Shown here in pieces: positions 22,381 to 31,666 of a DNA stretch of 64,000 nucleotides. The notes beneath the pieces were generated by a model. That model was given only the letters and a program-made list of their open reading frames with translations. It was not told the origin of the DNA and did no database searches. Positions within the stretch are counted from its first letter, which is position 1. The number at the start of each line of letters is the position of its first letter. The position numbers were made by a program, and so were the translations under genes. The stretch lies in the NCBI RefSeq assembly GCF_000735585.1, contig NZ_JNNO01000001.1, positions 124,001 through 188,000 of the forward strand. Reading direction: 5' to 3'. This DNA is from Devosia sp. LC5. Its GTDB lineage: Bacteria; Pseudomonadota; Alphaproteobacteria; Rhizobiales; Devosiaceae.

Positions 22381-23217
22381 ATGCCGGCTGCACAACGGGT
22401 CATCGCCACGATCCTTGGTTGCGGCTCATCGGGCGGCGTGCCGCGCATTGGCAATGTCTGGGGCGATTGCGACCCGGCCGAGCCGCGCAACCGCCGGCGG
22501 CGCTGCTCCTTGCTCATCGAGGGTTGGAGCGAGAACAGCAGTGAGCCCACTCGGGTGCTGATCGACACCGGCTGCGATTTGCGCGAGCAGTTGCTCGACG
22601 CCCAGGTCGATCGTGTCGATGCGGTGTTCTATACCCATGAGCATGCCGACCACACCCATGGCATCGATGATCTGCGGGTATTGGCGCTGCACAATCGTCG
22701 CCTGGTCGACGTATACTTCACCCACGTCACCGGCGAACGCCTCCGCGAAGCGTTCGGCTACTGCTTCACAGCGCCGTCCGGCAGTTCCTATCCGCCAATC
22801 CTCAGCGCTCACACGATCGCGCCAAATGCGGAATGCGTGGTCGAAGGGCCGGGCGGCTCTATCACCGTCCAGGCCTTCGAGCAGACCCATGGCGACATCA
22901 TCTCGCTGGGTTTTCGTATTGGCGACTTTGCCTATTGCTGCGATCTGTCGGGATTTCCGCCGCAATCACACGACGCGATATCCGGCCTGTCGATCTGGGT
23001 CATCGATGCGTTGCGCCCAACGCCGCATCCCAGCCATCTGAGCTTGCCCGAGACCCTGGAACTGATCGCCCAATTCGCGCCCGGCCAAGCCATATTGACC
23101 AATATGCATATCGATCTCGACTACCGGGCAACTGACGCCTCGACGCCAGGAAACGTCACGCCGGCATTCGATGGCATGCAGATCGACTTGCTGTCTGGAC
23201 GCATCCTCAATCTGTAG
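22381..23217 (+). CDS. Metallo-beta-lactamase-fold hydrolase (PhnP-like)
   Basis: Cytosolic MBL-fold phosphodiesterase-type protein, 278 aa. The dinuclear metal motif THEHADHTHG is at about 85-94, with a later histidine in EQTHGDIISLGF, an aspartate in AYCCDLSGFP and HPSHLS near the C-terminus. N-terminal GCGSSGGVPRIGNVWGDCDP is the hallmark of the PhnP-like clade (phosphoribosyl cyclic phosphodiesterase relatives). ATG begins on the base after the tatD stop, so it is the last gene of the rlpA-to-MBL run. Substrate unknown. Confidence 0.9.
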   Translation: MPAAQRVIATILGCGSSGGVPRIGNVWGDCDPAEPRNRRRRCSLLIEGWSENSSEPTRVLIDTGCDLREQLLDAQVDRVDAVFYTHEHADHTHGIDDLRVLALHNRRLVDVYFTHVTGERLREAFGYCFTAPSGSSYPPILSAHTIAPNAECVVEGPGGSITVQAFEQTHGDIISLGFRIGDFAYCCDLSGFPPQSHDAISGLSIWVIDALRPTPHPSHLSLPETLELIAQFAPGQAILTNMHIDLDYRATDASTPGNVTPAFDGMQIDLLSGRILNL

Positions 23218-23335: not shown

Positions 23336-24127
23336 CTAGCGACTGCCTGGTAATGGCATGCGTTCGATTTCGGCCAGAACTTCGAGCATGCCGTCGACGT
23401 TGTGCTCGGCGATCTCCCGGCCCTTCTCCGCCGTTGCTATGGACGCATCACCGACCGCGCCGCCCGGATTGATGTCGGACGCGATCCACGCATAGGTGTG
23501 GCCGAATGCGCCTGTGGGCCGCAGATATTTGTATTCAGCCTCGTCGCGTGCGGCGATGGAGACGAAGTTCTCGGCGCGGCTCATATCGACCAGATCGGGC
23601 CGGAAATGCAGGATGAGCGAAGTTTCGGCGTCACCGCCATGAATGCCGTGGCGGCGCTCGACGTCGCCCAGCAGGTCGGGCGGTGTGAAGCGCCAGCCAC
23701 TTTTGACGGCCAACATGCCGGCCTGGACCCGCAATTCACGCGCCACGATGCCCATGATCTCTTCATTGCCGCCGTGCGAATTGACGAAAATGATCTTGCG
23801 GACCCCTGCCCGCGCCACTTCCAGCCCAATCTGCGTCCAGCCGTCGATCAGATTGGTTGCCTTGTGGCTGAGCGTGCCCTTGGCCCAGATATGTTCGTTG
23901 GACTTGCCAATGGCCTGAACCGGCAGGATGCGGATGTCCAGTTCAGCCGGCGCGCGCGCCGCCAACAGTTCCATCATCGACTGGTTGATGATCGTGTCCG
24001 TGCCCACCGGCAGATGGGGCCCGTGTTGCTCGATGGCGGCGATGGGCAGCACGGCAATGGTCTTGGCCGGATCGACAGTGTTGAAATCGGACGCCGAAAA
24101 GTCGGTCCACCAGATCTTGCGCGTCAT
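23336..24127 (-). CDS. Creatininase-family amidohydrolase
   Basis: Zinc/manganese hydrolase of cyclic or linear amides, 263 aa. The creatininase metal ligands are all in place: IEQHGPHLPVGTD (E33, H35, D44), FVNSHGGN (H118) and GIHGGDAETS (H163, E168). The family also includes FAPy deformylases (ArfB) and MftE, so creatinine itself need not be the substrate. Start ATG 24127 follows GAGGA. Together with ridA, 10 nt upstream, it is divergent from an ABC importer/amidohydrolase/flavoprotein operon, implying a step in catabolism of an imported nitrogen compound. Confidence 0.88.
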   Translation of the reverse strand: MTRKIWWTDFSASDFNTVDPAKTIAVLPIAAIEQHGPHLPVGTDTIINQSMMELLAARAPAELDIRILPVQAIGKSNEHIWAKGTLSHKATNLIDGWTQIGLEVARAGVRKIIFVNSHGGNEEIMGIVARELRVQAGMLAVKSGWRFTPPDLLGDVERRHGIHGGDAETSLILHFRPDLVDMSRAENFVSIAARDEAEYKYLRPTGAFGHTYAWIASDINPGGAVGDASIATAEKGREIAEHNVDGMLEVLAEIERMPLPGSR

Positions 24128-24137
24128 AGAAAAGTCC

Positions 24138-24527
24138 TCACGCTGGGCCAGCGGCAATGGCTTCGATTTCGACGACGAATTCGGGCCGGGCAAAGCCGGA
24201 AACGATCATCAGGGTCGAGGCGGGATAAGGCTCGGCAAACAGCACGTTGCGTACGCCCATATAGTCCGGCAGATGCTCCCTGCCCGTCACATAGGCGTTG
24301 ATGCGGATGATATTGGCCAGACTCATGCCGGTCTCGCCCAGAATGGCGGCGATGTTGTCGAAACAGATGCGCGCCTGGCCCGCACAGTCGGGCGGAACCG
24401 TCTTGTCGGCGGCAATGCCCAATTGGCCGGAGCAGAACACCAACTGCTGCCCGGGCGGCACGACAATGCCGTGGCTATAGGGCGCGAAAGGCGGATGAAT
24501 CTGGTGGGGAGAGAGGGGCGTCGCCAT
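24138..24527 (-). CDS. RidA family (YjgF/UK114) protein
   Basis: Small trimeric-fold protein of 129 aa; RidA members hydrolyse reactive enamine/imine intermediates to ketones, and relatives in catabolic operons do pathway-specific deaminations. Family features: an SHGIVV/FCSGQLG beta core, QARICFDNIAAIL helix, INAYVTG, and a C-terminal VEIEAIA strand. The usual RidA arginine seems replaced (STLMIVSGFARPE), which points to a pathway-specific subfamily rather than canonical RidA. First gene of a two-gene operon with the creatininase-family hydrolase. Confidence 0.88.
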   Translation of the reverse strand: MATPLSPHQIHPPFAPYSHGIVVPPGQQLVFCSGQLGIAADKTVPPDCAGQARICFDNIAAILGETGMSLANIIRINAYVTGREHLPDYMGVRNVLFAEPYPASTLMIVSGFARPEFVVEIEAIAAGPA

Positions 24528-24738
24528 GGTCGAAAACTTCCTTGAGGTGGCGATGCTAGCCTCCGGTAAATCGCTTGCCTAGTCCAAACTGCACAAATTT
24601 GCATGCATGGCAGGCATTTTGTTGGGCTGCTCATTTTTTGGCTTCACAACGGGCGCAGACCGGGCCAACAATTGCGCAAGCGACGCGGTCGCACAGAAAT
24701 TGGTCGTGGCTGCTCATAGCCATGCCGGGGAGCGCAAA

Positions 24739-25749
24739 ATGCACGATATTATCAAACTCGTCTCATCGTCGGTCCTGATTTTTGGAGCCCTGGCTGGCGC
24801 CGCCGCGGCCCAGGACAAGGTCACGTTCGGCACCAACTGGCTCGCCCAGGCCGAGCATGGCGGCTATTATCAGGCCGTCGCGGATGGCACTTACGCCAAG
24901 TACGGTCTAGACGTGACCATTCGCCAGGGCGGCCCGCAAGCGCCCAATGGTCAGCTTTTGGTTGCCGGTCAGCTGGATTTCTACATGGGCGGCATGGGGA
25001 CAATCGACTCGGTGTCGCGCGGCATTCCCGTCGTCACGGTTGCGGCGATCTTCCAGAAAGACCCGCAGATTCTGCTGGCTCATCCCGATGCGCCCTTCAC
25101 CGATCTGGCCAGCCTGTCAGGCGCCAGCAAGATGATCCTGGGTAAGGACAGCCTGTTCAGCGGCTTCTGGCCTTGGATGAAGTCGACAATGGACGGCTTC
25201 TCCGACGACAAGTACGAGCCATACACCTTCAATCCGGCGCCGTTCATTGCCGATCCGCTGGCTGTGCAACAGGGCTATCTGACCTCCGAGCCGTACGAGA
25301 TCGAACGCCAGACCGGCTGGGCGCCCAAGATCTACCTGCTCGCCGATTTCGGTTACGACCCCTACTCCACCGCGATTGAAACGCGGCAGGAGATCGTCGA
25401 CAGCAATCCCGACCTGGTGCAGCGCTTCGTCGATGCCTCGATTATCGGCTGGTACAATTACCTTTATGGTGACAATACCGCCGCTAATGATCTGATCAAG
25501 AAGGACAATCCGGAGATGACTGACGGTCAGATCGCCTTCTCGATCGCCAAGTTGAAAGAATATGGCGTGGTCGTTTCCGGCGAAGCCGAGACCCAGGGCA
25601 TTGGCTGCATGACGGAGGAGCGCTGGCAGGCTTTTTATGACATGATGGTCAAGGCCGGCGTTTATGAAGCCGGTATCAATATCTCCAAGTCGTTCTCGAC
25701 CGCTTTCGTCTGCAAGGGCGTGGGTCTGGAACTGGCCAAGGCCGAATAG
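24739..25749 (+). CDS. ABC transporter substrate-binding protein, NMT1/THI5-like
   Basis: Periplasmic binding protein of 336 aa with signal peptide (MHDIIKLVSSSVLIFGALAGAAAA, cleavage before QDK). The core FGTNWLAQAEHGGYYQAVADG followed by YGLDVTIRQGG is the NMT1/THI5-like pattern shared with binding proteins for pyrimidines such as hydroxymethylpyrimidine precursors, riboflavin, and sulfonates. ATG 24739 follows GGGAGCG; the open extension upstream to 24607 lacks sense as a signal. It heads an operon and is separated from the ATPase by a hairpin. The ligand is unknown. Confidence 0.9.
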   Translation: MHDIIKLVSSSVLIFGALAGAAAAQDKVTFGTNWLAQAEHGGYYQAVADGTYAKYGLDVTIRQGGPQAPNGQLLVAGQLDFYMGGMGTIDSVSRGIPVVTVAAIFQKDPQILLAHPDAPFTDLASLSGASKMILGKDSLFSGFWPWMKSTMDGFSDDKYEPYTFNPAPFIADPLAVQQGYLTSEPYEIERQTGWAPKIYLLADFGYDPYSTAIETRQEIVDSNPDLVQRFVDASIIGWYNYLYGDNTAANDLIKKDNPEMTDGQIAFSIAKLKEYGVVVSGEAETQGIGCMTEERWQAFYDMMVKAGVYEAGINISKSFSTAFVCKGVGLELAKAE

Positions 25750-25766
25750 CACCGCGCGATCAATCG

Positions 25767-25794
25767 GCGCGGGCAATCCCGCCCGCGCTGTTTT
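25767..25794 (+). terminator. Intercistronic hairpin between binding protein and ATPase
   Basis: GCGCGGGC (25767-25774) and GCCCGCGC (25781-25788) pair around AATCCC, extendable by two pairs, followed by TGTTTTG. Probably a partial terminator or 3' stabiliser giving more binding protein than membrane components, as in other ABC operons. Confidence 0.7.
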
Positions 25795-25816
25795 GACCCT
25801 AGTCCGGGTTCCGATA

Positions 25817-26647
25817 TTGACCGATACATCAGCCGTCGCCGCTCGTCCTCCCGAGGTCGAATCTCCCCGCGCCATCGTCTCGATGCGCAACGTCACCAAA
25901 GTGTTCTCCAACGGCACGCTGGCCCTCAGGGACATGTCTCTGGATGTGAAGGGCGGCGAGTTCATCTCGCTGCTTGGCCCCTCCGGTTGTGGCAAGTCGA
26001 CGGCCCTGCGCATCATCGCGGGACTGGGTGCGCCAAGTTCGGGCAGCATCGATTGGCCGTCGTCCAAGATCAACACCAAGGGCCTGCCCGAAGGCGATGT
26101 GGGGTTTGTCTTTCAGGACCCTACCCTGATGCCCTGGGCCAATGTGTTCGACAATGTGCACCTGCCGCTCAAGCTCAGGGGCGTCTCCAAAGCGGATGCG
26201 CGTGAGCGGATTATGGAAGGGCTGGCCAGCGTCGGTCTGGCTGATTTCGCCAAGTCCTATCCCCGCGAACTGTCCGGCGGTATGCGCATGCGTGTCTCAA
26301 TTGCCCGCGCCATCGTCACGCGGCCCAAGCTGCTGTTGATGGATGAGCCCTTTGCCGCGCTCGATGAAATCACCCGCCAGAAGCTCAATGACGACGTGCT
26401 GCGGCTATGGCAGCAATTCGGTATGACGGTGATTTTCGTCACGCACTCGGTCTACGAGTCCGCCTATCTGTCTAGCCGTATCGTGGTGATGCGGGCGCGG
26501 CCGGGCCAAGTGTTCACTGACATGCAGATTGCCCAGCCTGCCATTCGTGATCACGATTATCGCAATTCCGAGGGCTACCGGCAGACCTGCCAGACCGTTT
26601 CGGATGCGCTGCAACGCGCCATCCACGCCGCGGAGATCGCATCATGA
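25817..26647 (+). CDS. ABC transporter ATP-binding protein (nitrate/sulfonate/pyrimidine type)
   Basis: Cytosolic ATPase of an importer, 276 aa. Walker A GPSGCGKST (54-62), Q-loop VFQDPTLMPW, signature LSGGMRMRVSIARA, Walker B LLLMDEPFAALDE and H-loop FVTHSVYESAYLS, the SsuB/TauB/ThiZ subfamily pattern. Start is tentative: TTG 25817 keeps about 20 residues before the first strand; ATG 25883 would start right at it. ATGA overlap with the permease gene. Confidence 0.92.
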   Translation: MTDTSAVAARPPEVESPRAIVSMRNVTKVFSNGTLALRDMSLDVKGGEFISLLGPSGCGKSTALRIIAGLGAPSSGSIDWPSSKINTKGLPEGDVGFVFQDPTLMPWANVFDNVHLPLKLRGVSKADARERIMEGLASVGLADFAKSYPRELSGGMRMRVSIARAIVTRPKLLLMDEPFAALDEITRQKLNDDVLRLWQQFGMTVIFVTHSVYESAYLSSRIVVMRARPGQVFTDMQIAQPAIRDHDYRNSEGYRQTCQTVSDALQRAIHAAEIAS

Positions 26648-27507
26648 ACCAGATCAAGACCATAGCCGTGGCTGAGGCTGGCACCGATGCTGCCGTGGCC
26701 GCCCTGCTCCCGCGCTCCAGCACGAATGAGAAAGTACTGCGCGTCGTCATCCCCGTTCTGGCCCTGTCACTGGCGATCCTGGCCTGGCATTTGGTGGTCA
26801 CGATCAACGGGATTCCCAAATATCTGCTGCCGGGGCCGGTCGATGTGGTCATCGCGCTCTTCACCGATTCCGCCACACTCTGGCCTGCCCTGCTTGTCAC
26901 CCTCAAGATCACCTTCATGGCCTTGGCTCTCGCGCTGATTGGCGGCGTGGGGTTGGCGATCTTGCTAGTGCAGTCGCGCATTCTGGAACTGGCGCTGTTT
27001 CCCTTCGCGGTGATCCTGCAGGTAACGCCGATGATCGCCATCGCGCCGCTATTACTGATCTATGCGCCTGATACCCAGACCGCCCTGCTCATCTGCGCCT
27101 TTATCGTGGCCTTCTTCCCAATTCTCTCCAACATGGCGCAGGGCCTCAAAAGTGTCGACCATAACCTATTGAATCTATTTGAACTTTACGGCGCATCGTC
27201 ATGGCAGACGCTGCTCTATCTCAAGATTCCGACCTCCATGCCCTATTTCATGGCCGGGCTGCGGATCGGTGGCGGCCTGTCGCTGATCGCTGCAGTCGTC
27301 GCCGAGTTCGCTGCTGGATCTGCTGGCCAGGGTGCGGGGCTGGCGTTCCGGCTGCTGGAAAGCCAATACCGGCTCAATCTGCCCCGCCTCTTCGTTGCCC
27401 TGTTGATGCTCTGCGGCACTGGCATCGCCATTTTTGGGCTGACTTCATTCATCTCCTGGCTGACGCTGCATCGCTGGCACGAGAGCGCCATCAAGCGGGA
27501 GAATTAA
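26644..27507 (+). CDS. ABC transporter permease (SsuC/ThiX type)
   Basis: Inner-membrane subunit of 287 aa with about six helices and the EAA loop (LFELYGASSWQTLLYLKIP) that docks the ATPase. The N-terminus is a long cytosolic tail before the first helix (VIPVLALSLAILAWHLVV). Partner of the preceding ATPase and the NMT1-like binding protein. The amidohydrolase gene begins 3 nt after its stop. Confidence 0.92.
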   Translation: MNQIKTIAVAEAGTDAAVAALLPRSSTNEKVLRVVIPVLALSLAILAWHLVVTINGIPKYLLPGPVDVVIALFTDSATLWPALLVTLKITFMALALALIGGVGLAILLVQSRILELALFPFAVILQVTPMIAIAPLLLIYAPDTQTALLICAFIVAFFPILSNMAQGLKSVDHNLLNLFELYGASSWQTLLYLKIPTSMPYFMAGLRIGGGLSLIAAVVAEFAAGSAGQGAGLAFRLLESQYRLNLPRLFVALLMLCGTGIAIFGLTSFISWLTLHRWHESAIKREN

Positions 27508-27510
27508 GGT

Positions 27511-28830
27511 TTGACGATCACTATTCCTTCGACCGGCCGTTATGTGCTGACCAATGCAAACGTGCCGGCAGCCGTGATGGGCGAGCCCGCTTCCGGTGCG
27601 CTGGTGCTTGTCGATATCGAGATTGCCGACGGCAAGGTCGTCAGCATTGCGGCCGCTGGCGACGTGTCAGTGGGGCCGGACCGTATCGATCTCGACCATG
27701 GCATTGCGCTCCCGGCTTTTGTCGATCTGCATACCCATCTCGACAAGGGCCACATCTGGCCGCGCAAGGAAAACCCGGACGGCACCTGGCTTGGCGCCCT
27801 GGTGGCCGTCGGCGAGGATCGCAATGCCAATTGGGCGGCGGCCGATGTCGAGCGGCGCATGGATTTCGCCCTGCGCTGCGCCTGGGCCCACGGAACGGCC
27901 GCTGTACGGACCCATATCGACAGTGCCCCGCCGCAACACGAGATTTCCTGGAGCATTTTGGAGACGGTACGGGAGCGCTGGGCTAGCCGGATCGAGCTGC
28001 AGGCCGTGTCGCTGATTGGCCCGGACGATATCCTCGACCGGAACAATCTGCGCGCCGTCGCCACGCGCACCAAGGCGGCCAACGGATTGCTGGGTGGCTC
28101 CACGGGTGTTCACCCCGACAACCCAGCCATCATGCGCGCGCTGCTTGAAATGGCTGGCGACTTCGGCCTTGATGTGGACCTGCATATCGATGAAACCGGC
28201 GATCCTGCCGCCGACGCCTTGCAAAGCCTGGCCGACGCGGTGATCGAGACCAGCTTTGCCGGCAAGGTGACGGCGGGGCATTGCTGCGCCATTGCCATTC
28301 AGCCCGAAGCGACGGCCATGGCAACCATCGAGCGCGTCGCGCAGGCGGGCATTGCCGTCGTCTCGCTGCCGATCTGCAACATGTATCTGCAGGATCGCCG
28401 CAATGTCGGCGGCGTGCGCACCCCGCGTTGGCGTGGCGTTACCCTGCTCAATGAACTCAAAGCCGCCGGGGTGCCAGTTGCTATCGCATCGGATAACACC
28501 CGCGACCCGTTCTATGCCTATGGCGATCTCGATGGCTTTGAAGTGCTGCGCGAAGGTGCGCGGATTTTGCATTTCGACCATCCGCAGGCCGATGCCTTTA
28601 CCTGGGTGCGCTCGGTCAGCGCCGAGCCGGCGGCCATTGGTGGCTTCACCTATTCCGGCACGATCGGCGCGGGGCTTCCTGCCGAGCTGGTGCTCTTCCG
28701 CGCCCGCACCTGGACCGAGCTGATGTCCCGGCCGCAAACCGATCGCGTCGTGCTGCGCAGCGGCTCGGCCATCGACACCACCCTGCCCGATTATCGTGAA
28801 CTCGACGACCTGATGGGACGACAAGCATGA
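27511..28830 (+). CDS. Cytosine-deaminase-like amidohydrolase (CodA group)
   Basis: Metal-dependent TIM-barrel hydrolase, 439 aa. Ligands match CodA: DLHTHLDKGH (H74, H76), DLHIDETGD (His near 225, catalytic Glu near 228), AGHCC (His near 257) and ASDNTRDPF (Asp near 328). CodA-group enzymes deaminate or hydrolyse pyrimidines, creatinine and triazines, so the substrate is probably a cyclic amidine/amide. Start is TTG 27511, 9 nt after GGGAG. It sits in the importer operon, with ATGA overlap into the flavoprotein gene; likely the first or second catabolic step. Exact substrate cannot be inferred. Confidence 0.85.
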   Translation: MTITIPSTGRYVLTNANVPAAVMGEPASGALVLVDIEIADGKVVSIAAAGDVSVGPDRIDLDHGIALPAFVDLHTHLDKGHIWPRKENPDGTWLGALVAVGEDRNANWAAADVERRMDFALRCAWAHGTAAVRTHIDSAPPQHEISWSILETVRERWASRIELQAVSLIGPDDILDRNNLRAVATRTKAANGLLGGSTGVHPDNPAIMRALLEMAGDFGLDVDLHIDETGDPAADALQSLADAVIETSFAGKVTAGHCCAIAIQPEATAMATIERVAQAGIAVVSLPICNMYLQDRRNVGGVRTPRWRGVTLLNELKAAGVPVAIASDNTRDPFYAYGDLDGFEVLREGARILHFDHPQADAFTWVRSVSAEPAAIGGFTYSGTIGAGLPAELVLFRARTWTELMSRPQTDRVVLRSGSAIDTTLPDYRELDDLMGRQA

Positions 28831-30227
28831 GCATTTCAGATTTCCGCGCTGACCTTGGCGATATCCCTGTCGAAGATCATCCTCGCATCGTCCAGCAACG
28901 CAGCCGCGATCACTATTGGTATTCCCCGATACTGAAGGCCAAGCTCGATCATGTGACAGCGGAAATCGTGGTGTCGCCGCGCTCCAATGCGGAGGTGAAA
29001 ACCGTCCTCGCTGCCGCGTTCCGTCATGGCATCGCCATCACCCCGCGCGGCGCCGGCACGGGCAATTACGGCCAGGCCATGCCGTTGTCGGGCGGCGCCA
29101 TGCTCAATCTGATGAATATGGACAAGGTTCTGGAGATCAAGCCGGACCGTGTCCGCGCCCAGGCCGGCGCCGTGCTTGAGCAGATGGATCACCAGACCCG
29201 CGAAGCCGTAAACGGCGAGTTACGCTTTCACCCCTCGACCTACCGCATGGCCAGCATTGGCGGCTTTATCGCCGGCGGCTCGGGTGGCGTCGGTTCTGTG
29301 CGCTGGGGCGGCTTGCGCAATATAGGCAGCATTCTGGGGGTGAAGGTCATCACTTGCGAGGAGAACCCGCGCGAGCTGGATCTCGTGGGTGAAGACATCC
29401 TCAAGGTCGCCCATGCCTATGGCACCAATGGCATTATCGTCGAGGCGGAAATGCCCCTGACCCAAGCGCATGACTGGGTCGACATGATTGTCGGCTTCGA
29501 TGATTTCATCGAGGCATGCCGCTTTGGTGGCGCGGTCGCGCTGCAGGATGGGCTGCTGGTCAAGGAAGTGGCCCCCTGCGCAGCCCCGATCCCGCAGGAC
29601 TATTTCAACCGCCACAAGCCCTATATCCGCGATGGCCAGTCCGTCGTGCTGCTGATGGTGGCACCCGTGGCAGTGGATGCAATGACGCTGTTCGTGGCCC
29701 ACCATAAGGGCGAGATGCTCTATCGCTCCGACGAGGCCAGCGCCGAAGAACTCAAGCGCCTGCCTCCGGTCTACGAGCTGGCGTGGAACCACACGACGCT
29801 GCGCGCGCTCAAGGTCGATCCGACCATCACCTATCTGCAGACCCGCTACCCCACCGTCGCCCATGTCGAAAAAATCATTTCGATCCTGGGCGATGAATTG
29901 CCCATGCATATAGAGGTCGGCCGGCAGGATGGCGTGGTCATGTATGGCGGGCTGCCGCTGGTGCGTTACACAACCGAAGAACGGCTCGAGCAGATCATCC
30001 GCATCCACGAGGAAAATGGCTGCCACGTGTTCAATCCGCATCGCTATACGCTTGAGGAAGGCGGCATGAAGCGGACCGATCAGAAGCAGCTCGATTTCAA
30101 GCGCGAGGCTGACCCGAAGGGCATGCTCAACCCCGGCAAGATGATCGCCTGGGACGATCCGGATTTCGATTTCAATGCCGGCCGCGTCTGGCTGTTCGAC
30201 GGCCTCAATCCGGTGAATGCTGCCTGA
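28827..30227 (+). CDS. FAD-binding oxidoreductase (PCMH/VAO type)
   Basis: Flavoprotein of 466 aa related to GlcD-like FAD/FMN dehydrogenases. The PCMH FAD domain shows VVSPRSNAEVKTVLAAA, then PRGAGTGNYGQAMPLSGGA, and ASIGGFIAGGSGGVGSVRWG; the C-terminal half ends with LDFKREADPKGMLNPGKM, the usual terminal motif of this family. There is no iron-sulfur domain. It probably oxidises an organic intermediate of the pathway, with RidA coping with imine products, but this is inference. ATG overlaps the amidohydrolase stop and the stop overlaps the next start. Confidence 0.85.
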   Translation: MSISDFRADLGDIPVEDHPRIVQQRSRDHYWYSPILKAKLDHVTAEIVVSPRSNAEVKTVLAAAFRHGIAITPRGAGTGNYGQAMPLSGGAMLNLMNMDKVLEIKPDRVRAQAGAVLEQMDHQTREAVNGELRFHPSTYRMASIGGFIAGGSGGVGSVRWGGLRNIGSILGVKVITCEENPRELDLVGEDILKVAHAYGTNGIIVEAEMPLTQAHDWVDMIVGFDDFIEACRFGGAVALQDGLLVKEVAPCAAPIPQDYFNRHKPYIRDGQSVVLLMVAPVAVDAMTLFVAHHKGEMLYRSDEASAEELKRLPPVYELAWNHTTLRALKVDPTITYLQTRYPTVAHVEKIISILGDELPMHIEVGRQDGVVMYGGLPLVRYTTEERLEQIIRIHEENGCHVFNPHRYTLEEGGMKRTDQKQLDFKREADPKGMLNPGKMIAWDDPDFDFNAGRVWLFDGLNPVNAA

Positions 30228-30823
30228 TGCGCGTCCATGTCATCCATGCCCATCCGGTAGAAACCAGCTTCAACCGGGCCCTGTTCGACGCCGTGGTGGA
30301 CGAGCTGACCGCCAATGGCCATGAGGTCGATGCCCTCAATCTCTATGACGAACAGTTCGACGCTGTGCTGAGCCGGGAAGAGCGCCTCAACTATCACGAA
30401 GTGCCCGGTAATCTGACCCCGGCGGTCAAACCCTACGTCGATCGCCTGCGCGCAGCGGAAGCCATTGTCTTCGTGCATCCTGTATGGAACTACGGCTATC
30501 CGGCTATTCTAAAGGGATATTTCGACCGCATCTTCCTGCCGGGCGTGTCCTTTGTGATGGAGGGTGGCGGTGATCGGGGGCGGCTGGTTCCAAACCTGAC
30601 GAACATCAAGAAGGCCGCCTTCATCACCACCTATGGCGGCAATCGCTGGCGCACCATGCTCATGGGCGATCCGCCGCGCCGCATCGCCCGCCGCTGGGGT
30701 TGGGCCACGTTCCGGGGGCGGTTGCCACCGAAATACCTGGCACTTTACGACATGAACAATTGCACGCCGGAGCAGCTCACCGGGTTTATTCAGACGGTTC
30801 GCAGCGAGATCGGCAAGTTCTAG
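30227..30823 (+). CDS. NAD(P)H-dependent oxidoreductase, flavodoxin fold (KefF/MdaB type)
   Basis: FMN/FAD reductase of 198 aa: VHVIHAHPVETSFNRALFD near the N-terminus, VFVHPVWNYGYPAILKGYFDRIFLPG-type core (quoted only in part: VHPVWNYGYPAILKGY), and a C-terminal helical region. Members reduce quinones or provide reduced flavin. ATG overlaps the flavoprotein stop by one base (TGATG). Its place at the end of the operon suggests it recycles electrons for the preceding flavoprotein or reduces a pathway quinone/heterocycle. Confidence 0.87.
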   Translation: MRVHVIHAHPVETSFNRALFDAVVDELTANGHEVDALNLYDEQFDAVLSREERLNYHEVPGNLTPAVKPYVDRLRAAEAIVFVHPVWNYGYPAILKGYFDRIFLPGVSFVMEGGGDRGRLVPNLTNIKKAAFITTYGGNRWRTMLMGDPPRRIARRWGWATFRGRLPPKYLALYDMNNCTPEQLTGFIQTVRSEIGKF

Positions 30824-30856: not shown

Positions 30857-31666
30857 ATGCAGCCCTCCCGCGATATCTCCCGCCTCATCGAGATCATGGC
30901 GGCCCTGCGCAATCCGGTGGGTGGTTGCCCCTGGGATCTGGAGCAGGATTTCTCGTCCATTCGCCACTATACTATCGAAGAAGCCTATGAGGTCGCCGAC
31001 GCGATTGAACGGCAGAACTTTTCCGATCTGCGGGAAGAGCTGGGCGATCTGCTGCTGCAGCCGATCTATCACGCGCAGATGGCCAGCGAGGCCGGCCATT
31101 TCGACATTGGCGACGTGATCTACGGCATCACCGAAAAGCTCATTCGCCGGCATCCGCATGTGTTCGGTGATCTCGACGCCGATGATTCCGACGCCGCCAA
31201 GGGCCGTTGGGAGGCAATCAAGGCGCAGGAGCGTGCCGCGAAGGCGGAACGGAAGGGCGAGACTACGCCTTCCGTGCTCGATGATGTGCCCACGCCCCTG
31301 CCCGCCTTGGCGCGTTCCGAAAAACTCACCAAACGTGCGGCCAAGGTGGGGTTCGACTGGCCGGACTATGCCTCCGTGCGAGCCAAGGTTGCCGAGGAGC
31401 TGGACGAGGTCGATGAGGCGGTCGCCGCGAAAGACCCGACGGCAGCGCATGAAGAAATCGGCGATCTGTTGTTTGCAATCGTCAACCTGGCCCGCCACGC
31501 CGGGGTCGATGCTGAAGCGGCTTTGCGCGATGCCAATCTCAAATTCACGCGGCGCTTCCACTATATGGAGGCCAGGTGCCGCGAGGACGGCATCGAACCC
31601 GGCAAAGCCGGGCTCGAACGTCTGGTTGGCTATTGGAATGAGATCCGCAAGGCCGACAAGGCCTGA
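30857..31666 (+). CDS. mazG: Nucleoside triphosphate pyrophosphohydrolase
   Basis: House-cleaning NTP pyrophosphatase, 269 aa, with the two tandem MazG repeats. Repeat 1 has CPWDLEQDFSS and EEAYEVADAIE...EELGDLLLQ; repeat 2 has VAEELDEVDEAV and HEEIGDLLFAIVNLAR, keeping the ExxE...ExxD magnesium pattern in both. Convergent with hflX, the two stops separated by only 3 nt. It is separated from the catabolic operon by 33 nt but is a normal Rhizobiales neighbour of hflX. Confidence 0.95.
   Translation: MQPSRDISRLIEIMAALRNPVGGCPWDLEQDFSSIRHYTIEEAYEVADAIERQNFSDLREELGDLLLQPIYHAQMASEAGHFDIGDVIYGITEKLIRRHPHVFGDLDADDSDAAKGRWEAIKAQERAAKAERKGETTPSVLDDVPTPLPALARSEKLTKRAAKVGFDWPDYASVRAKVAEELDEVDEAVAAKDPTAAHEEIGDLLFAIVNLARHAGVDAEAALRDANLKFTRRFHYMEARCREDGIEPGKAGLERLVGYWNEIRKADKA

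Follow-up and report, generated by a model that had tools for sequence, protein, structure and literature searches.

Folates are made by every cell, and oxidised pterin rings continually reach the soil. A 2013 report on the Arad3529 protein reportedly spoke of an undescribed pterin degradation pathway. In the accessible part of PMC9513972, a 399-residue enzyme of Variovorax sp. F1 is described that deaminates folate and pteroate and is 37.0% identical to Arad3529 of Agrobacterium radiobacter K84 and 76.7% identical to Vapar5141. The same text mentions conserved 'endoribonuclease' genes downstream of the V. paradoxus genes, which we read as members of the L-PSP/RidA family, and closes with the question of whether bacteria break down the deaminated products, and by what means. 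Separately, a flavin oxygenase has been deposited in the Protein Data Bank (PDB entries 6v42 and 6v43), with the 2020 entry 6v42 bearing the title 'flavin oxygenase ... involved in folate catabolism'. Here we describe a cluster of eight genes at positions 23336-30823 of a 64,000-nucleotide stretch of Devosia sp. LC5 (contig NZ_JNNO01000001.1, positions 124,001 to 188,000), called the window below. We consider it probable that this cluster imports and degrades pterins, as oxidised folate breakdown products, likely for nitrogen. It would thus join two elements already on record, the deamination activity and the deposited oxygenase, which were reported separately, into a largely undescribed pathway.

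A first link to folate catabolism is the FAD flavoprotein of the cluster (466 amino acids; 28827..30227, + strand; Pfam FAD_binding_4, 88 bits). It is 56.7% identical to 6v42 over 464 amino acids, at full length (E 5.8e-179), and has the same fold as the 6v42 group. With members of the family from Pantoea, Ruegeria, Comamonadaceae, Alloyangia and Klebsiella it shares 34-41% identity, whereas the 57% shared with 6v42 marks a close group. From this kinship of sequence and fold, we predict that the Devosia protein is a flavin oxygenase of pteridine catabolism, and that the flavodoxin-fold NAD(P)H oxidoreductase encoded next to it (30227..30823, +; Pfam Flavodoxin_2, 106 bits) serves as its reductase. 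In the clusters of Klebsiella, Rahnella and Pantoea, where the annotation shows no flavodoxin-fold reductase, a VanB/PDR-type reductase heads the operon, and both types occur in 19 of the 21 clusters of the 399-residue Variovorax type. The replacement of one reductase by the other supports, if indirectly, the presence of an oxygenase that needs electrons. Three Hyphomicrobiales loci (L111, L112 and L113) harbour two different flavoproteins of this family in one cluster.

The second enzyme, a cytosine-deaminase-like amidohydrolase (439 amino acids; 27511..28830, +; Pfam Amidohydro_3, 87 bits), is predicted to be a pterin deaminase; its closest database relative, from Devosia neptuniae, is 91% identical. 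The roles of the metal and catalytic residues of CodA, like those of the other reference residues used below, are assumed from general knowledge. H74, H76, H225, E228, H257 and D328 align with these CodA residues, and each is found in 99 of 100 aligned relatives, the exceptions being one misread row and one broken gene (L037); the claim of a first-pass annotation of the window, that all metal ligands are present, is thereby borne out. Gln156 and Asp314, presumably substrate-site residues of CodA, are not kept: none of the 100 rows has Gln at the corresponding position 171, and Asn replaces Asp314 at position 329 in 98 of them. CodA and the 5-substituted cytosine deaminase 4r7w thus resemble the Devosia enzyme in fold and in their aligned metal and catalytic residues, but the match reaches at most 99 bits and the two substrate-site positions differ.

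To relate this deaminase to the published one, we turned to 'Variovorax-like' genomes, so called because a protein named V. paradoxus has a 99%-identical copy in one of them. Of 61 such genomes, 45 encode a 399-residue relative of the window deaminase, with identities down to 62%, many of them at 74-79%. At the 21 such loci whose surroundings were analysed, a RidA gene starts 2-42 bp downstream of the deaminase gene in every case, and all eight components are present at 19. This gene set fits the published F1 folate and pterin deaminase, by length, neighbour and identity range rather than by sequence. The F1 enzyme and Arad3529 would accordingly belong to the same amidohydrolase family as the Devosia protein by cluster position, i.e. 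through a 399-residue Variovorax-like protein with RidA downstream and the same genes around it, but the identity of the Devosia protein to that 399-residue type is just 33%. On the atrazine plasmid pADP-1 of Pseudomonas ADP, a 58%-identical relative of the Variovorax deaminase (L125, 8935-10266) lies beside a BMP-type ABC importer, and it and atzD stand on opposite sides of a LysR gene; the other cluster genes are not near it on this plasmid.

The eight genes form a real unit. An alignment of flavoproteins was used to scan one genome per species, which yielded at least 590 stretches encoding relatives, and the best 80 of these, named and taken with as much as 10 kb of flanking sequence at either end, served as the locus sample. 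All eight components are present in 68 of the 80 loci, seven in 7 and four to six in the remaining 5; of the 64 loci that span 21 kb or more, 56 are complete. In contrast, twenty 20-kb control stretches of related genomes hold at most two of the eight, mostly just the ABC ATPase. Matches to the ATPase and the reductase are generic, those to the other six components are not, and the clustering is far above chance. The first-pass annotation, which had proposed a catabolic system that handles a nitrogen heterocycle by import, ring deamination, oxidation and hydrolysis, had stated that it would be refuted if the genes were not kept together elsewhere; they clearly are, and this part of its proposal is supported, pterin-like rings being among those that it named. 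The creatininase and RidA genes are both divergent upstream in 37 of the 80 loci, while in 31 the creatininase gene is upstream in sense and the RidA gene downstream, and 12 have other arrangements. Of the 151 nearest genomes, 53 have a flavoprotein match, in 19 of 71 genera, and more distant versions of the cluster are found on plasmids of Paroceanicella, Nitratireductor, Alloyangia, Ruegeria, a Comamonadaceae strain, Roseateles, Pantoea, Rahnella and Klebsiella. The divergence of seven of the components is correlated (r 0.72 to 0.90 over 74 loci, with no species-tree baseline), a correlation that we do not use as an argument.

In the window, place and orientation of the eight genes are as first annotated, and each has a Pfam match to the family then proposed. 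The creatininase-like and RidA-like genes run leftward with 10 bp between them; across a divergent intergenic region of 211 bp (24528..24738), the genes for the binding protein, ATPase, permease, deaminase, flavoprotein and reductase run rightward, overlapping or separated by short gaps. The importer comprises a periplasmic substrate-binding protein of the NMT1/THI5 family with a signal-peptide-like start (24739..25749, +; Pfam NMT1, 72 bits), an ATPase (open frame as listed 25664..26647, +; Pfam ABC_tran, 116 bits), whose true start probably lies after 25750, and a permease (26644..27507, +; Pfam BPD_transp_1, 76 bits). It would take up a pterin, from which the deaminase would strip the 2-amino group to yield a lumazine. 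The flavoprotein, recharged by the flavodoxin-fold reductase, would then oxygenate the pteridine ring, although the order of events after deamination is our proposal.

The two divergent genes would provide the remaining steps. The creatininase-family amidohydrolase (263 amino acids; 23336..24127, - strand; Pfam Creatininase, 216 bits) was first annotated as having all ligands. Glu122 of the Pseudomonas putida creatininase, which we take to be a metal ligand, aligns with Gly120 of the Devosia protein, and the claim has to be amended at that position. The other four ligands are kept, as E33, H35, D44 and H118 align with Glu34, His36, Asp45 and His120 of the P. putida enzyme (1j2t). The Devosia protein resembles that enzyme in its Pfam family and in these four ligands, but differs from it by the Gly residue and by a score of 79 bits at the creatininase equivalog model, against a cut-off of 235. 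We predict that it hydrolyses a cyclic amide of the ring or a ring-opened intermediate. The RidA-family protein (129 amino acids; 24138..24527, -; Pfam Ribonuc_L-PSP, 72 bits) has Ser104 where TdcF has Arg105, in agreement with the altered arginine site first noted, and Ser occupies this position in 83 of 83 RidA proteins of the clusters. Since Arg105 presumably acts in the imine/enamine deaminase reaction of RidA, the usual RidA chemistry should not be taken for granted; the protein may instead handle a reactive imine, enamine or related intermediate.

Other nitrogen heterocycles must be weighed against pterins. In the model of the binding protein (pLDDT 92), the nearest solved folds are those of thiamin- and formylaminopyrimidine-binding proteins, among them the thiamin-precursor importers represented by ThiY of Bacillus halodurans (3ix1) and by 4nmy, and the deaminase is named a cytosine deaminase by NCBIfam. 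Both observations could suggest that the cluster degrades thiamin-type pyrimidines (hydroxymethylpyrimidine and its amino or formyl forms) or cytosine-like ones, and not pterins, which we regard as unlikely. Indeed, the fold kinship stands at 17% identity, which leaves the ligand unfixed, the Devosia cluster has no thiamin genes, and pterin itself contains an aminopyrimidine; moreover, the substrate-site positions of CodA are lost from the deaminase, and the flavoprotein is closely related to a protein deposited under folate catabolism. Slightly less probable again is that the clusters have diverged towards different nitrogen heterocycles and that the Devosia one serves another ring, such as other pteridines, a plant alkaloid or an oxidised purine. 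The satellite genes do vary, as in the Klebsiella, Rahnella, Ruegeria and Rhizobium sets, some Variovorax-like genomes have two such clusters, and deaminase identity between lineages is 30-40%; yet all share the same core, and the flavoprotein of Devosia falls in the close 6v42 group, not among the distant members.

The presence of a creatininase-family member also brings to mind the catabolism of creatinine, hydantoin or flavin fragments, which appears very improbable. The low equivalog score and the absence of Glu122 argue against creatinine, and neither creatinase nor sarcosine oxidase nor hydantoinase consistently accompanies the genes in the annotated clusters examined, among which hydantoinase-B-type genes are nearby in Nitratireductor alone. 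The flavin-fragment and creatinine alternatives of the first-pass annotation thus find no support. Riboflavin or lumichrome catabolism was also considered and rejected, as the route given in the accessible part of PMC12746152 uses a different enzyme set.

Pterin catabolism, which we prefer, has observations to contend with as well. NCBIfam model PRK07583, 'cytosine deaminase', names the window deaminase above its cut-off (585 versus 403 bits), and gives the 399-residue Variovorax protein 334 bits, under the cut-off. The Devosia deaminase is 33% identical to that Variovorax enzyme and 38% to the other Variovorax type, which is low enough for a change of substrate, and the place of Arad3529 and F1 in the gene set is drawn from length, neighbour and identity range. 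One or more genes are missing from 12 of the 80 loci, for which contig ends account in some cases but not all, and the reductase is absent from 2 of the 21 Variovorax loci, in one case together with the creatininase. The cluster contains no folate hydrolase, our literature search found no paper behind 6v42, and neither a sigma-54 match nor a LysR gene is present in the window. The substrate is assigned here from sequence comparisons.

Regulation differs by lineage. We searched the 400 bp upstream of the binding-protein gene for a strict sigma-54 pattern, TGGCA followed by C or T, five bases and TTGC, which we take to represent the consensus. Of 77 loci, 27 (e.g. L077, L079, L092 and L115) have a match ahead of the importer operon, against 38 of 8060 400-bp windows of the same loci, a background that includes the matching upstream windows. 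Many of the 27 are from Mesorhizobium, others from Kaistia, Stappia, Bauldia, Breoghania, Methylobrevis, Prosthecomicrobium and Afifella. With uncorrected gene starts, a match was found before 18 of 87 binding-protein genes and before 0-2 of the 83-111 genes of each other component. Eleven of 25 Variovorax-type loci have one site each (e.g. L151, L152 and L155), ten of these sites lying 40-112 bp before the first recognised operon gene, and the Klebsiella and Rahnella loci have no strict match. A LysR gene, counted by likeness to a Rhizobium LysR protein, is present in 33 of the 80 loci and in none of the 27 with a sigma-54 match, so that the two never occur together. In the divergent gap of the window, which is without a strict sigma-54 match, a search for a conserved promoter found none. 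Sigma-54 promoters commonly serve genes of nitrogen limitation, and the matches therefore fit nitrogen scavenging, without proving it.

We lean, by a small margin, towards a still broader proposal, in which these genes make up a complete pathway dedicated to degrading the pteridine ring: after uptake, the ring would be deaminated, oxygenated by the flavin enzyme and hydrolysed by the creatininase-like one, and a RidA protein without the arginine would do the clean-up. Transferred across alpha-, beta- and gammaproteobacteria, and wired in several lineages to nitrogen limitation through sigma-54, it might fill in the missing route for the recycling of folate rings by bacteria of soil and rhizosphere. 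The first-pass annotation had called the system probably undescribed, which is too strong for two of its parts, as the deamination is published in PMC9513972 and the oxygenase structure deposited as 6v42. For the rest, a literature search that reached few subscription journals found no publication of the steps after deamination or of the whole gene set. The gene set provides candidates for these steps, which are seen to move as a group, and it opens the pathway to testing. It would also correct many database names, as the 'cytosine deaminase' and 'creatininase' of these clusters are probably neither.

Around the core, the satellite genes are variable and include 2-oxoglutarate oxygenases; no Pfam family was found for the most frequent satellite frame of the loci. 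In Klebsiella (L126, 3154-5582) and Rahnella (L127, 3111-5570), an extra 2-oxoglutarate oxygenase, a second binding protein and an amidohydrolase resembling 8-oxoguanine deaminase (NCBIfam PRK12393) are encoded divergently from the main operon, and the Ruegeria cluster has a TauD-type oxygenase and a glutamine-amidotransferase-like protein. Two Rhizobium plasmids (L033 and L036) carry an aldehyde/xanthine-dehydrogenase-type set with XdhC directly beside the cluster; the large subunit of such a set is encoded nearby in only 2 of the 80 scanned loci.

A metallo-hydrolase gene beside tatD (22381-23217) and mazG (30857-31666) flank the cluster in the window. In one of 15 relatives without the cluster (L237), 226 bp separate the tatD-linked metallo-hydrolase gene from mazG, which looks like an empty site; the 1.5 kb examined in the remaining 14 contains no mazG. 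Neither neighbour is found within 10 kb of the cluster in five named Devosia loci, and from these differing surroundings it follows that the unit has moved within the genus. Stop codons interrupt the flavoprotein frame in two congeneric relatives (G053:C129 and G038:C1), and these copies seem to be decaying.
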